A program made the translations under genes and the position numbers. The notes beneath the pieces were generated by a model, which saw only the letters and a program-made list of their open reading frames with translations, did no database searches and was not told where the DNA came from. DNA of 20,005 bases from a virus. This document shows positions 8,189 to 13,247 of the stretch, in pieces (position 1 is the first letter of the stretch; the number at the start of each line of letters is the position of its first letter). The DNA lies in the IMG/VR virus record IMGVR_UViG_3300042350_001272, positions 1 through 20,005 of that record; one strand, written 5' to 3'.

Positions 8189-8959
8189 ATGAAAACAATA
8201 GTATTAGTAACTGGAGGATTTGATCCTATTCACAGTGGACACATTGCCTACTTTAATGAAGCCAAAAAACTTGGCGATGAATTGTGGGTTGGTGTAAACA
8301 GCGACAACTGGCTTGTTAATAAAAAAGGCAGGCCGTTTATGTCATTTAACGAACGTACTACAATAGTTAAAAATCTACACATGGTAGATAATGTTATTGG
8401 TTTTGAAGACGACGAAATAGGCAGCAGTAATAAATGTATCGAATACATTCTAAATACCGTACCTGACGCTAACTTAATTGTTGCAAACGGCGGCGACCGA
8501 AATGCTGGAAATATACCCGAAGTTATTAAATATGGATCGCATCCCAGAGTAGAGTTTGCTTGGGCTATTGGCGGCGATGATAAAAAAAATTCAAGCAGTT
8601 GGATTTTAAAAAATTGGGAAAAGCCTAAGACTGAAAGATTTTGGGGATCTTACAAAGTACTTGATAGCAACGGCGAATGGCAAGTAAAAGAATTAAGTTT
8701 TCAAAAAGGAAAAGCGTTAAGCGATCAACGACATTTTAAACGGTCCGAACACTGGCATGTTGTTAGCGGAGTAATTGTAATGGTACTCGAAGACAGAGAA
8801 GGTAGAAAAACGCAAAGAACTCTAATCCCAGGAGATAGTATAGACATACCGACTGCATACTGGCACAAGGCTATAAATATCGGAAACGAAACTGCCAAAG
8901 TAATTGAAGTGTGGCTAGGTAAAGAATTAACGGAGAATGACATTGAACGACGAGATTAA
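8189..8959 (+). CDS. Fusion of HldE/RfaE-like nucleotidyltransferase and ManC-type cupin
   Basis: Residues 1 to about 140 form a cytidylyl/adenylyl-transferase domain: GGFDPIHSGH at 9-18 carries the HxGH nucleotide-binding motif, with GVNSDNWLVNKKGRP (35-49) and FNERTTIV after it, closest in feel to the sugar-1-phosphate adenylyltransferase part of HldE. Residues about 148-256 form a cupin like the C-terminal phosphomannose isomerase domain of ManC/AlgA: ERFWGSYKVL, VKELSFQKGKALSDQRH, then RSEHWHVVSG at 185-194 and PGDSIDIPTAYWHKAINIGN. Such a protein might both handle and activate a sugar phosphate. Which sugar is unknown, and whether the cupin is catalytic cannot be told. The gene's end overlaps the next coding region. 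Confidence 0.88.
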   Translation: MKTIVLVTGGFDPIHSGHIAYFNEAKKLGDELWVGVNSDNWLVNKKGRPFMSFNERTTIVKNLHMVDNVIGFEDDEIGSSNKCIEYILNTVPDANLIVANGGDRNAGNIPEVIKYGSHPRVEFAWAIGGDDKKNSSSWILKNWEKPKTERFWGSYKVLDSNGEWQVKELSFQKGKALSDQRHFKRSEHWHVVSGVIVMVLEDREGRKTQRTLIPGDSIDIPTAYWHKAINIGNETAKVIEVWLGKELTENDIERRD

Positions 8960-9683
8960 ACCATTAAAGATCTATATTGGATGGGATAGTAGAGAAGACA
9001 TTGCATACCAAGTTGCAAAGTTAAGTATTGAACAACATGCATCGGTGCCCGTTGAAATAATTCCGATAGAACAACGGAAACTTAGAAAACAAGGCGTTTA
9101 CACTCGTCCAGTTGACAAACTTGCAAGCACAGAGTTTACGTTTACAAGATTTCTTATTCCGTATCTCAATAACTACACAGGCTGGGCACTGTTTATAGAT
9201 TGCGACTTTTTAGCAGTTGCAGACATAAAAGATTTATTTGATCAAATCGACAACAATTATGCTATCATGTGTGCTCAACATAACTATATACCAAAAGAAG
9301 TTACAAAAATGGACGGGCAGCGACAAACGTTGTATCCAAGAAAAAACTGGTCAAGTATGATGTTAATCAACTGCGAACATCCTAGTAATAAGTTATTGAC
9401 TCCTACACTTGTTAATAACGAGGCAAAGACGGGTGCGTATTTTCACAGATTTAGTTGGGTGCATGACAAACATATAGGCAAGATAAGCCACGAATGGAAC
9501 TGGTTAGTAGGATGGTACAAAGAGCCCGAGGATGGTAAGCCAAAACTTATTCACTATACCGAAGGCGGTCCTTGGTTTGATGATTACAAAAGTTGCGAAT
9601 ACTCAAGTGATTGGTATCAAGTTGAAAGAGCATACTTACAAAATAATTTAGAAGTTCAAAAAAAAACCTCGCAAGAGAAATAG
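8937..9683 (+). CDS. GT-A glycosyltransferase (GT8-like), zero-frame product
   Basis: The 248-residue product has a Rossmann-like start (LKIYIGWDSREDIAYQVAKLS), the TRFLIPYL segment and the metal-binding DxD motif IDCDF (Asp88, Asp90), then HYTEGGPWF near the C-terminus, which recalls the GT8 family. It should transfer a sugar from a nucleotide donor. GGAG at 8932-8935 is only one base before ATG 8937 but seven before the in-frame TTG 8943, so TTG may be the real start. The zero frame ends soon after a run of nine A (9658-9666); a -1 shift there continues into the next gene and would make a 565-residue two-domain enzyme (see the separate slippery-site entry). Confidence 0.85.
   Translation: MTLNDEIKPLKIYIGWDSREDIAYQVAKLSIEQHASVPVEIIPIEQRKLRKQGVYTRPVDKLASTEFTFTRFLIPYLNNYTGWALFIDCDFLAVADIKDLFDQIDNNYAIMCAQHNYIPKEVTKMDGQRQTLYPRKNWSSMMLINCEHPSNKLLTPTLVNNEAKTGAYFHRFSWVHDKHIGKISHEWNWLVGWYKEPEDGKPKLIHYTEGGPWFDDYKSCEYSSDWYQVERAYLQNNLEVQKKTSQEK
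9658..9666 (+). other. A9 run: candidate -1 frameshift or transcriptional slippage site
   Basis: In the zero frame the codons are CAA AAA AAA ACC, giving the classical slippery form A AAA AAA at 9659-9665. Slipping one base back continues AAC CTC GCA and enters the frame of the following gene, which is open from 9647 with no ATG, GTG or TTG before ATG 9821. The zero-frame stop TAG is at 9681-9683. A tiny hairpin, CTC GCAA GAG at 9668-9677, follows, too weak to count much. A missing A from homopolymer sequencing error would look the same. Confidence 0.6.
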
Positions 9684-9820
9684 AACGACCCAAAACAATT
9701 GACGATTTACCGTTTACAAAGAATGTAAAATCTATATTAAAGCTATACTTAAATACATTAGTCGATCCTGAACATAGGATCTATGACGACACAGAATTAA
9801 AGAAAGAAGTTAGTACATTC
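9665..9820 (+). other. Start-less coding stretch linking two glycosyltransferase frames
   Basis: These 52 codons are in frame with the gene at 9821 and read as normal protein: NLAREIERPKTIDDLPF, then KNVKSILKLYLNTLVDPEH and a charged helix leading to FMGIKIAA. No standard start codon is present. The coding character argues that ATG 9821 is an internal methionine and that this stretch links the GT-A domain to the downstream domain. Confidence 0.65.
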
Positions 9821-10633
9821 ATGGGAATAAAAATTGCAGCAATTGCATCCGACGGATTTAACTATGAAGCCAAAGGATTAAAATACGATCCTTACTTGCA
9901 ATCATTTATAATGGGTTCTGGTGGAAGCATAAGTGACTTTGTGTTAAAAAACGGCACTACTGACACTCTAGTAATTCGAGGATTAGGTGGCGGCGGACAA
10001 AAAGCCATAAAATATTGTTTAAGAAATAAAATAGATTTTTATGCTATCGACTCTGGATATATTCAGCCCGGTACAAAAAAAGACTATCATCGTATTACTA
10101 AAAATGCACTGCAAAATTTAGGACCAATAAAAGACAGAGGCCTTGATAGATTAAAAAAATTAAATTGGCAATACAAAAACAGAAACGGTCAAACAGGCAA
10201 TAAAATTTTAATATGTCCGCCATCTGACAAAGTAATGAAGTTTTATGAAAAAGATTTAGATACTTGGTTAGCTGAAACTATTGATGAGATCAAAACATAT
10301 ACCAATCGACCAATTGAAGTAAGACTCAAACCAAATCGTTCCGAACGGGTTACAACTAATACAATTTGGGATGCGTTAGATGATGCATACTGTTTGGTTA
10401 CATTTAACAGCATTGCAGCTACAGAAGCGTTGCTTTACAGTGTACCAGCTATCACACTAGCACCAAATGCTGCCTCTGTTTTGTGCAACACTGCTCTTAA
10501 AGACATTAACAATTTATATTTGCCTACCAAGCAAGAGATTGTCAGATTTGCAGCACACTTATCTTATTGTCAGTTTAATTCTAATGAAATGCTAAACGGA
10601 TTTGCATGGAGCATATTAAATGAAGGTAGTTAG
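9821..10633 (+). CDS. GT-B-like putative glycosyl- or glycerophosphotransferase, probably the C-terminal half of a fusion
   Basis: From ATG 9821 the product is 270 residues, but the frame is open and protein-like back to 9647, so this is probably the downstream part of a frameshift fusion with the glycosyltransferase at 8937. There is no Shine-Dalgarno site before ATG 9821. The region has a glycine-rich loop RGLGGGGQKA, then an IEVRLKPN strand and VTFNSIAATEALLYSVPAITLAP, the pattern of the donor-binding half in capsule-type GT-B enzymes and CDP-glycerol glycerophosphotransferases (position equivalent to an RPHP motif and a conserved Ser). The C-terminal pattern, aromatic residues then 'NGFAW', is shared with the genes at 10620 and 12402. 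Substrate unknown. Confidence 0.72.
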   Translation: MGIKIAAIASDGFNYEAKGLKYDPYLQSFIMGSGGSISDFVLKNGTTDTLVIRGLGGGGQKAIKYCLRNKIDFYAIDSGYIQPGTKKDYHRITKNALQNLGPIKDRGLDRLKKLNWQYKNRNGQTGNKILICPPSDKVMKFYEKDLDTWLAETIDEIKTYTNRPIEVRLKPNRSERVTTNTIWDALDDAYCLVTFNSIAATEALLYSVPAITLAPNAASVLCNTALKDINNLYLPTKQEIVRFAAHLSYCQFNSNEMLNGFAWSILNEGS

Positions 10634-11549
10634 TTATTTAAAAACTGTTCCGGCAAAAAATAACAACAAACAAAAAACCGATTTGCTTTTTAAATTTATT
10701 AAAGGTGTAGATAAGGCCGGCGATGTTGGAAAAATCAATAACACAGATCAAATTGAAGATTCTGAAGTTGCAGTGATACAAGGCTGGGTGCATAACGATG
10801 TAAGTTCTGCACATCTAAAACTAAGAAACAATATAATACATACACAAGTTTCAAACGGAAAACATGTTGTGTGCGCAGATGCAAATTTATTTTTATATAA
10901 TGATAAAATAAATCCTCACGGTTATTTAAGATATAGTTTTAATGGAATCTTTCCAAGCACAGGTATCTATTGTGATCAAGACGTTGACCCGACTCGATGG
11001 CAGCAGATTAGTAGAGATACAAGAATTGTATTGGAAGATAACAAGACACACGGATCTCATATTTTACTAATGCTTCAACGCAATGGCGGATGGAGCATGT
11101 CAGGAATGGATGTGCAACAATGGGCGTTGGAAACAATTAATAAAATAAGATATAACAGTGACAGACCTATTGTAATAAGAGCTCATCCAGGAGACAAAAA
11201 CGCAACAAAGTATTTGCATCCTAAATTTACTAAAATTAAAAATTTTAAAAACGTAACAATAAGTGCATTCGACAAACCATTAGAACAAGATCTAGATAAT
11301 GCGTGGTGTGTTGTTAATCACAACAGCAGTGCAGTAGTTGGTCCGATAATAAAAGGTTATAATTGTTTTTTAACTGACCCACAAAAAAGTCAGTGTAAAG
11401 AAGTTTCAAATGATGATTTTAAATATATAGAATCACCTGTTACATTTGACAGACAACGTTGGCTTGAACGAATCAGCATGTTTCACTGGAAGTTTAGTGA
11501 ATTAGAAGACGGTAGCTGCTGGCGCCATATGAGAAACTATTGCCAATAG
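10620..11549 (+). CDS. GT-B-like putative glycosyltransferase, second paralogue
   Basis: The 309-residue product carries IVIRAHPGD at residues 184-192 and WCVVNHNSSAVVGPIIKGYNCF (229 onward, in part), the same RxHP-plus-Ser arrangement as the proteins at 9821 and 12402 and as capsule/teichoic-type transferases. Its C-terminus (RQRWLERISMFHWKFSELEDGSCW, in part) also aligns with theirs. The start overlaps the preceding gene by 14 bases and is preceded by GGAG about nine bases upstream, so coupling is likely. Its last 13 bases overlap the end of the convergent gene on the minus strand. Function as a sugar or sugar-phosphate transferase is inferred from motifs. Confidence 0.75.
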   Translation: MKVVSYLKTVPAKNNNKQKTDLLFKFIKGVDKAGDVGKINNTDQIEDSEVAVIQGWVHNDVSSAHLKLRNNIIHTQVSNGKHVVCADANLFLYNDKINPHGYLRYSFNGIFPSTGIYCDQDVDPTRWQQISRDTRIVLEDNKTHGSHILLMLQRNGGWSMSGMDVQQWALETINKIRYNSDRPIVIRAHPGDKNATKYLHPKFTKIKNFKNVTISAFDKPLEQDLDNAWCVVNHNSSAVVGPIIKGYNCFLTDPQKSQCKEVSNDDFKYIESPVTFDRQRWLERISMFHWKFSELEDGSCWRHMRNYCQ

Positions 11550-12401: not shown

Positions 12402-13247
12402 ATGAAGTTTAGTTTATGGACACAATATGGAGCACTTAACTCGTCTCCTGTATTCGATGCATTTAGAAAAGGTGCTCAATCGTTAGGATTCACATGCACA
12501 GATAATACTACTGATAGCGATGTAGATGTTATATGGAGCGTATTATTTCATGGCAGAATGGCTCCGAACAGAGGCATTTGGGAGAAAAACAAAATAACCG
12601 GAAAGCCGACTGTTGTGTTAGAAGTCGGTGGCATCAAGCGTGGAACAACATGGAAGGTAGGGTTAAATGGAATTAATAGGAATGCTTATTTTGGGCCTAG
12701 TGGTATGGATGATCTACGCAGTCGCAAATTAGGATTGGAATTAAAACCCTGGCGGCAAGATGGTGAGTATATTTTAATTTGTGGACAACATGATAAAAGT
12801 TTACAGTGGCAAGGCATGCCGCCTATGAGCAAGTGGGTAATGGATACAATTGAACAGTTGCAAATGCATTACAACTATCCTATTATATTTCGTCCGCATC
12901 CGAGATGCAGACTTCCAGACATTGAACGTCAATATAAGAACGTTTATAGGCAAGAACCAAAGCAGATATCAGGAACATACGACGACTTTGATATGAACTT
13001 TGCTAATGTAAAATACACTGTAAGCTGGAGTAGTAATCCGGGAATACACAGTGTTATCAATGGTGTACCTGCGTTTGTTAGTCCATATAGTTTAGCGTTC
13101 GATGTAGCATGTCCGCATTTGTTAATGGTAGACAATCCTCATTTGCCAGATAGGCAACAATGGTTAAATGATTACGCATATACAGAATGGACAATTGCGG
13201 AAATTTCTCAAGGTATCCCGTTGAAATACTTGACTTTAAAATTGTAA
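12402..13247 (+). CDS. GT-B-like putative glycosyltransferase, third paralogue
   Basis: The 281-residue product has the clearest version of the motif: IIFRPHPRC at residues 161-169 and SWSSNPGIHSVINGVPAFVS from 208, typical of GT-B enzymes of capsule and CDP-glycerol transferase type. The N-terminal half (KFSLWTQYGALNSSPVFDAF, then a VLEVGG segment) would form the acceptor side. The C-terminal WLNDYAYTEWTIAEISQGIP aligns by eye with those at 10620 and 9821. AGGA about ten bases upstream supports ATG 12402. The next gene starts 18 bases downstream. Confidence 0.77.
   Translation: MKFSLWTQYGALNSSPVFDAFRKGAQSLGFTCTDNTTDSDVDVIWSVLFHGRMAPNRGIWEKNKITGKPTVVLEVGGIKRGTTWKVGLNGINRNAYFGPSGMDDLRSRKLGLELKPWRQDGEYILICGQHDKSLQWQGMPPMSKWVMDTIEQLQMHYNYPIIFRPHPRCRLPDIERQYKNVYRQEPKQISGTYDDFDMNFANVKYTVSWSSNPGIHSVINGVPAFVSPYSLAFDVACPHLLMVDNPHLPDRQQWLNDYAYTEWTIAEISQGIPLKYLTLKL

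Follow-up and report, generated by a model that had tools for sequence, protein, structure and literature searches.

Frame change on A runs in described systems

Productive slippage has been described in a limited number of cellular genes, in viruses and in IS elements, and A runs are an established site of it. The closest functional parallel to the phage locus described here is that of tssM1 of Citrobacter rodentium and tssM3 of Yersinia pseudotuberculosis, for which transcriptional frameshifting is reported as proven, with a major product that differs between the two genes (PMC4256274). As in the phage locus, a poly-A run (A11 in tssM1) lies shortly before a stop codon, and short and full-length products are described, which for the phage are proposed; both forms of tssM1 are reported to be needed (PMC4256274). 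The tssM genes differ in that they concern one secretion protein and a measured level of 15-25% (PMC4256274), whereas the phage case concerns two enzymatic domains and is known from sequence only. In the phage family, unlike in tssM, the run is found at three places of a linker.

The dnaX gene is reported to use transcriptional slippage on A9 in Thermus thermophilus and ribosomal frameshifting in E. coli. It resembles the phage family in its coding run of A9-A10, in the nearby stops in both other frames and in the roles of long and short product, which can be reversed by one nucleotide (PMC5009743, PMC1088944, PMC3711429). It differs in encoding a cellular polymerase subunit, as opposed to phage glycosyltransferases. 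For dnaX, a ribosome site inside the gene that would serve the C-terminal portion is not known. The transposases of IS elements are similar in that two overlapping ORFs are joined via slippage on 9A, as reported in PMC1088944. That case differs in serving the regulation of a mobile element, and the phage halves also exist as separate genes in relatives. Campylobacter phage CPt10 is a T4-like phage. Its methyltransferase gene contains a poly-adenosine tract for which the authors suggested slippage, but this is a suggestion for a single gene, and the passage on the tract mentions neither a conserved family nor a two-domain linker (PMC2853527). For the tail assembly chaperone of tailed phages, a short form and one lengthened by a frameshift are described as well, but it is a chaperone and its shift is ribosomal; some T4-like phages are reported to carry separate short and fused chaperone copies instead (PMC10885494).

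Layout of the locus

The DNA analysed here, hereafter the window, is a stretch of 20,005 bases from an IMG/VR virus record. From the translations of its terminase-, UvsX-, UvsW- and gp32-like ORFs, the phage is putatively T4-like. A glycosyltransferase gene of the window runs over nine A shortly before its stop codon, and a second domain follows in the -1 frame. The features are as follows:

8937 to 9683, + strand: zero-frame ORF of a GT8/LgtC-like GT-A glycosyltransferase, the default product (248 aa; Pfam Glyco_transf_8, and Foldseek with a fused relative)
9658 to 9666, + strand: putative slippage site of nine A, including the in-frame heptamer A_AAA_AAA at 9659-9665 (at least nine A in 14 of the 14 listed shifted clusters)
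9681 to 9683, + strand: zero-frame stop TAG ending the short product (ORF translation)
9665 to 9820, + strand: -1-frame linker, in the window entered only via a frame change (no earlier start; purifying selection in the -1 frame)
9821 to 10633, + strand: -1-frame C-terminal domain of 270 aa with a predicted KpsC-like GT-B fold (predicted fold, KpsC Z 11.3; start-codon tests)

Over the run, the zero frame reads CAA AAA AAA ACC TCG CAA GAG AAA TAG. From 9647 onwards the -1 frame stays open until its stop at 10631-10633, and the first ATG, GTG or TTG in it is ATG 9821, at +141 from the last sense base. The initial annotation of this DNA had placed the run, the heptamer and the stop at these positions, which are base-exact in the window sequence, and had described the -1 frame as open from 9647 to 10633 without a standard start before ATG 9821, which the sequence confirms. 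It had also proposed that a GT-A domain and a GT-B-like domain are linked through a change of frame at the A run; this is supported, and the sizes given for the two products, 248 residues for the short one and 565 for the fusion (243 zero-frame codons plus 322 -1-frame codons), are right. Directly upstream, and overlapping the start of the glycosyltransferase gene, a single ORF (8189-8959) combines cytidylyltransferase-like and MannoseP_isomer/cupin domains, according to Pfam.

Both domains resemble sugar transferases

The N-terminal domain matched the Pfam family Glyco_transf_8 with 31.4 bits (cut-off 24.3). A Foldseek search with a fused relative gave GlyE and LgtC as top matches, together with other GT8 structures, and the fold of the domain is like that of these two GT8 enzymes (1g9r, 5gvv). 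An AlphaFold2 model of the fused relative L023 (pLDDT 89, pTM 0.66) contains a helix behind the GT domain, at residues 214-240, which includes the lysine codons of the run.

The predicted structure of the -1-frame part of the window (pLDDT 86, pTM 0.78) matched KpsC best (8fux_A, VIA-align: Z 11.3 over 226 residues, rmsd 4.8), followed by WbbB and KrkA. The C-terminal domain is, on this model, a KpsC-like GT-B fold, alike in fold to the retaining Kdo transferases KpsC, WbbB and KrkA (PDB 8fux, 6mgb, 5fa1, 9yfx). The domains share about 9-16% identity with KpsC/WbbB/KrkA and LgtC/GlyE, to which they are likened by fold. In Pfam the C-terminal domain found only DUF6716, below cut-off (16.3 versus 27 bits), and no PHROG was assigned; sequence searches of the PDB returned nothing useful, with one match at E 0.34 for query A7 and none at 0.01 for query A2. 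The list of structure matches includes multidomain enzymes, among them the bifunctional WbbM (6u4b) and LARGE1. The fusion might perform a two-step sugar transfer.

Two more ORFs of the window (10620-11549 and 12402-13247) look GT-B-like by eye, although neither a Pfam family above cut-off nor a PHROG was matched. Loci such as L626 and L491 show additional matches to the C-domain HMM further downstream, so a tandem paralogue family may exist for the KpsC-like domain.

Arrangement of the two domains in relatives

Relatives were collected by IMG/VR scans, each giving the best 80 loci at most, and by one scan of GTDB contigs; the resulting clusters are a query-led sample, and all counts are counts among the matches listed. 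From a main set of 490 loci plus the window, 13 loci in which one domain was unmatched and 2 that gave no pair were removed, leaving 476 loci with both domains adjacent. These correspond to 174 unique sequences and to 123 clusters at 90% amino-acid identity, counted by one representative per cluster.

Four arrangements were distinguished in the 123 listed clusters: 14 are shifted by -1, 21 are fused in one frame with a linker run of at least nine A, 49 are fused without such a run, and 39 are separate gene pairs. Homologues with one unbroken fusion, which the initial annotation had suggested looking for, were thus found in 70 listed clusters. The shifted state, in which an A9 or A10 run is followed by the C-terminal part in the -1 frame, is carried by at least 45 contigs including the window. 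Its run is A9 in 11 clusters and A10 in three. Apart from the run, the shifted junctions have little in common. The window reads CAA AAA AAA ACC...TAG, L086 reads CAA AAA AAA AAT...TAG, L020 CAA AAA AAA AGG TCA GAC TAG, L034 CAA AAA AAA AGA CTA GCG CAT TAA and L120 GAT AAA AAA AAA GAA TAA, while in L220 the junction TCC AAA AAA AAA AGT TAG lies further along the linker.

A start codon for the C-domain gene is present in all 39 separate clusters, whatever their frame. In the 14 listed shifted clusters, no start in the C frame was found within 50 nt past the zero-frame stop; the first one lies at +51 to +159 from that stop, and an ATG, GTG or TTG occurs before +100 in 10 of the 14.

The scan of GTDB contigs gave 73 loci, of which 8 match both domains in different ORFs and 65 miss one domain; among these 73 no fusion in one ORF was seen, and the longest interdomain A run among the matches listed is seven. 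A later IMG/VR scan with another lead added 74 new loci with 13 further unique sequences, which stand outside all cluster counts, and no run-free shift without a start codon was found among these 13. Two loci were considered as run-free shifts and rejected, since an ATG stands at the GT stop or no more than two bases away from it. In both of them (L629, 1638-3295; L637, 1567-3301) the GT gene is followed by a linker-plus-C-domain gene with its own ATG, an additional arrangement in which the linker belongs to the C-domain gene. The loci with separate ORFs (the 8 from GTDB, L629 and L637) fit the short GT being a complete enzyme. An extra fused lineage with A9 (L626/L627) was also recovered.

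Only the window's cluster mixes fused and shifted members. Its fused member, L007 (contig IMGVR_UViG_3300008108_000310, 4001-5600), is a close relative of the window that has lost 95 nt including the A run; it was not taken as the representative. This deletion, seen in one contig, puts both domains in frame and is either a natural locked fusion or an assembly variant. In another contig (IMGVR_UViG_3300023119_000167, L039/L209) the frame changes within the C-domain, beside a run of seven A. It was rejected as a true shift because its near relative L040 is intact, which points to a probable single mutation or error; deduplication had merged it with the fused L040.

Selection on the -1 frame and phylogeny

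Between the zero-frame stop and the C-domain, the -1 frame is under purifying selection. In the window's clade dN/dS is 0.04 for the pair L003/L008 (dN 0.019, dS 0.466), 0.05 for L001/L008, 0.07 for L003/L086 and 0.08 for L008/L090, and six pairs from other clusters gave 0.20-0.29. The same stretch contains 2-10 stops in the other two frames. Only these ten chosen pairs are quoted; a comparison of all pairs over equal-length linkers was dropped because many such pairs lack positional alignment and yield values greater than 1.

The window's own cluster (variants L001, L003 and L008) has no start codon ahead of the C-domain ATG, so that its linker stretch must be reached via a frame change. As 10 of the 14 shifted clusters do have a start before +100, this translation argument is strongest for the window's cluster. 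With the purifying selection in the window's clade, it is very probable that the fusion protein is made from a locus of the window type. The initial annotation had named, as evidence against recoding, homologues that start cleanly near 9821 and have no homology to 9665-9820. Such a picture was not obtained in that form, because homologues of 9665-9820 exist and the stretch evolves under constraint in the -1 frame, but relatives do show a good SD-like site before the codon equivalent to 9821. We conclude that the feature is real and conserved, and that it is very probably in use.

A quick LG+G4 tree was built from 120 clusters, with three short rows omitted; the search was short, and the root and some joins are unsure. 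A single branch (support 94) has all separate pairs to the same side. The shifted and the fused clusters intermingle, with 7 changes between the two states, at least 4 of which are forced by starred branches, and presence and absence of the run require 12 changes. The shifted cluster L034 has the fused A10 clusters L023 and L157 as neighbours, and the shifted L256 has the fused A10 cluster L206.

Runs of at least nine A are concentrated in the linker

The longest A run in the linker of the 84 joined clusters (shifted or fused) is four in 4 clusters, five in 16, six in 13, seven in 13, eight in 3, nine in 14, ten in 18 and eleven in 3; for the 70 fused clusters alone, the corresponding numbers for four to eleven are 4, 16, 13, 13, 3, 3, 15 and 3. 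The dip at eight and the peak at nine to ten are confined to the linker, domains and flanks being without such a pattern. Among the 84 joined representatives, there are 35 runs of at least nine A in 16,786 nt of linker, none in 124,125 nt of domains and one in 404,228 nt of flanks, while runs of at least nine T are absent from linkers, domains and flanks alike. In a smaller first set, the flanks held 167 runs of A7, 20 of A8, one of A9 and none of A10, and the domains 58 runs of seven and two of eight. The sole run of at least nine A outside linkers in that first set is in the flank of L056 (ATGAAAAAAAAACTATG), possibly at a gene start.

The A runs of the linker exceed chance. When synonymous codons were resampled with the amino acids fixed, 13.5 +- 2.4 of the 70 fused clusters obtained a run of at least nine; the observed 21 were matched in 3 of 2000 resamplings. 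Since resampling already yields 13.5 of 70, a large part of the in-frame enrichment stems from the protein sequence: a lysine-rich protein motif carries much of the in-frame signal, to which codon choice contributes further.

Fused clusters of the first set have their runs at three positions of the linker: directly after the GT domain, some 50-125 nt further and before a conserved Asp-Pro, and right behind the Asp-Pro. The shifted forms use the first place in 12 clusters and the second in L220 and L256. Stops follow the in-frame runs closely. A +1-frame stop lies within one codon behind the run in 19 of 21 clusters, versus 15% of 172 other AAA-AAA codon pairs, and a -1-frame stop within four codons in 17 of 21, versus 57% of the same control; the clusters share ancestry, so these counts are not independent. 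With stops mostly close behind in both other frames, the default product of these 21 fused clusters would be reversed.

A probable internal start at the C-domain

In 64 of the 84 joined clusters, the C-domain begins with an ATG (9821 in the window). A search for the exact start Met by motif missed many clusters and was replaced by a positional test. An SD-like 4-mer precedes this ATG in 39 of 64 clusters, versus 100 of 832 other internal ATGs, and an SD-like 5-mer in 23 of 64, versus 17 of 832. Synonymous resampling gave 9.4 +- 2.5 clusters with 4-mers and 4.1 +- 1.8 with 5-mers, and the observed values were never reached in 2000 draws. Motif starts peak 9-14 nt before the ATG. Before ATG 9821 of the window itself no SD-like 4-mer was seen; its sister L086 has AAGGAGG upstream of the C-domain ATG.

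Given this excess, fused genes seem to keep an internal ribosome site, and a separate C-domain product is likely in the family. The frame shift would then not be the sole route to the C-domain in these relatives, and one locus may yield three products, the GT8-like and KpsC-like enzymes and a fusion of the two.

Probable mechanism of the frame change

We propose that two proteins, and in many relatives probably three, are made from one gene, most likely through transcriptional slippage on the linker run of at least nine A. In the window, the frame of the DNA stops at TAG 9681 and would give a free GT8-like enzyme. RNA polymerase most likely adds one A in some transcripts, turning A9 into A10, and these transcripts would be read straight through the linker and the C-domain into the 565-residue fusion. 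The -1 frame, in which the shifted class carries its C-domain, is the frame reached through one inserted nucleotide. For 21 of the 70 fused clusters the situation would be reversed, in that the DNA encodes the fusion across A9-A11 and slippage would end translation just past the run; the remaining 49 fused clusters are without a run of this type, which all 14 shifted clusters have. The difference in major product between tssM1 and tssM3 may parallel that between shifted and fused clusters (PMC4256274). We infer that the shift occurs in the RNA and not on the ribosome; the in-frame runs would be expected to slip too, at some frequency, and the products to have different jobs.

The initial annotation had favoured -1 ribosomal frameshifting on A_AAA_AAA (9659-9665) and had raised transcriptional slippage as an alternative. 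Under programmed ribosomal frameshifting, DNA and mRNA would both contain nine A. An in-frame A_AAA_AAA lies in the run of all 14 listed shifted clusters, which makes a ribosomal shift possible; the C-domain sits in the -1 frame, and in 4 of the 14 an AAGGA or AGGA precedes the run by 11-14 nt. However, none of the 14 uses A_AAA_AAG, reported to be much more shift-prone in E. coli (PMC5009743), and none has a run of just 7-8 A, although seven suffice for the ribosome. The 70 nt downstream fold to an average degree in ViennaRNA when compared with shuffled sequences (mean z 0.03 over the 14 clusters, range -2.05 to +2.13), and the A10-A11 runs of fused relatives exceed what a heptamer requires. 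A run of at least nine A in all 14 shifted clusters and the lack of a detectable local stimulatory structure in those 70 nt fit transcriptional slippage better; ribosomal shifting is not supported as the preferred mechanism and we consider it unlikely, transcriptional slippage being the probable one. Both would give the same fusion peptide (QKKNLARE), so protein data alone cannot separate them. E. coli RNA polymerase is reported not to slip detectably on runs shorter than eight A, and insertion is described as favoured over deletion; the enzyme also slipped more readily on T runs than on A runs, with hardly any signal except on T7/T8 (5-10%) (PMC6260861). In view of this weak response to A runs, A9 may be a weak site in some hosts. 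Nine is also the run length at which counter-selection is reported as evident in a large share of bacterial genomes, and a conserved 9A is described as a mark of purposeful slippage if its length is constant across all homologues (PMC1088944). The phage family shows such constancy loosely, with 9-10 A in the shifted clusters and absence from 49 fused ones.

Three further explanations do without recoding. Homopolymers are prone to sequencing error, and one A might be missing from the window through sequencing or assembly, as the initial annotation had considered; with at least 45 contigs in 14 clusters carrying the shifted state, one state per cluster, and related clusters consistently at A10 in frame, the probability of this is negligible and a missing base can be rejected for practical purposes. 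Homopolymers in glycan genes are also classic contingency loci, and replication slippage could toggle the fusion between phage generations; phase variation is discussed in PMC3711429. The adjacency of shifted and fused clusters on the tree (L034 by L023/L157, L256 by L206) would suit such a switch, but no frame-changing difference in run length was seen within any 90% cluster, and we regard phase variation as highly improbable. Finally, the shifted clusters could be decayed fusions that lost one A, the halves being separate and the C-domain translated from its own start, so that no fusion is made. Separate gene pairs are an ordinary arrangement (39 listed clusters), SD-like sites at the C-domain start are far above control family-wide and are found in 10 of 13 shifted clusters too, and the C-frame starts before +100 fit a separate C-domain. 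Decay is nevertheless improbable: purifying selection acts in the -1 frame on the linker that precedes the C-domain, the run is kept at nine A or more in all 14 shifted clusters, and the tree shows no cluster with an interrupted linker among the joined ones, although an open linker partly defines the shifted class. In the window's cluster there is moreover neither a start before ATG 9821 nor an SD-like 4-mer ahead of it.

Significance for the phage family

Slippage or frameshifting in a phage glycosyltransferase was not found described, in a search of titles and abstract openings with most subscription journals outside it, which is weak evidence that no such report exists. While productive slippage on A runs is itself known, what is likely new here is a run that changes state repeatedly, together with a likely internal start. 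As a tentative wider reading, the interdomain linker may act as an expression switch, in which a slippage run of A9-A11 has changed state about a dozen times at three linker places and an internal ribosome site is kept alongside; a single locus could then give the GT8-like enzyme, the KpsC-like enzyme and the fusion whichever frame the DNA encodes.

The phage enzyme family offers many natural replicates, with 14 shifted, 21 fused with the run, 49 fused without it and 39 separate clusters listed, across which the gain, loss, position and default frame of the run can be compared. The threshold of run length and the value of dual products thereby become directly testable. The family also warns that gene prediction programs will cut phage enzymes of this kind in two, and shows that what looks like a frameshift in phage DNA from metagenomes can be genuine.
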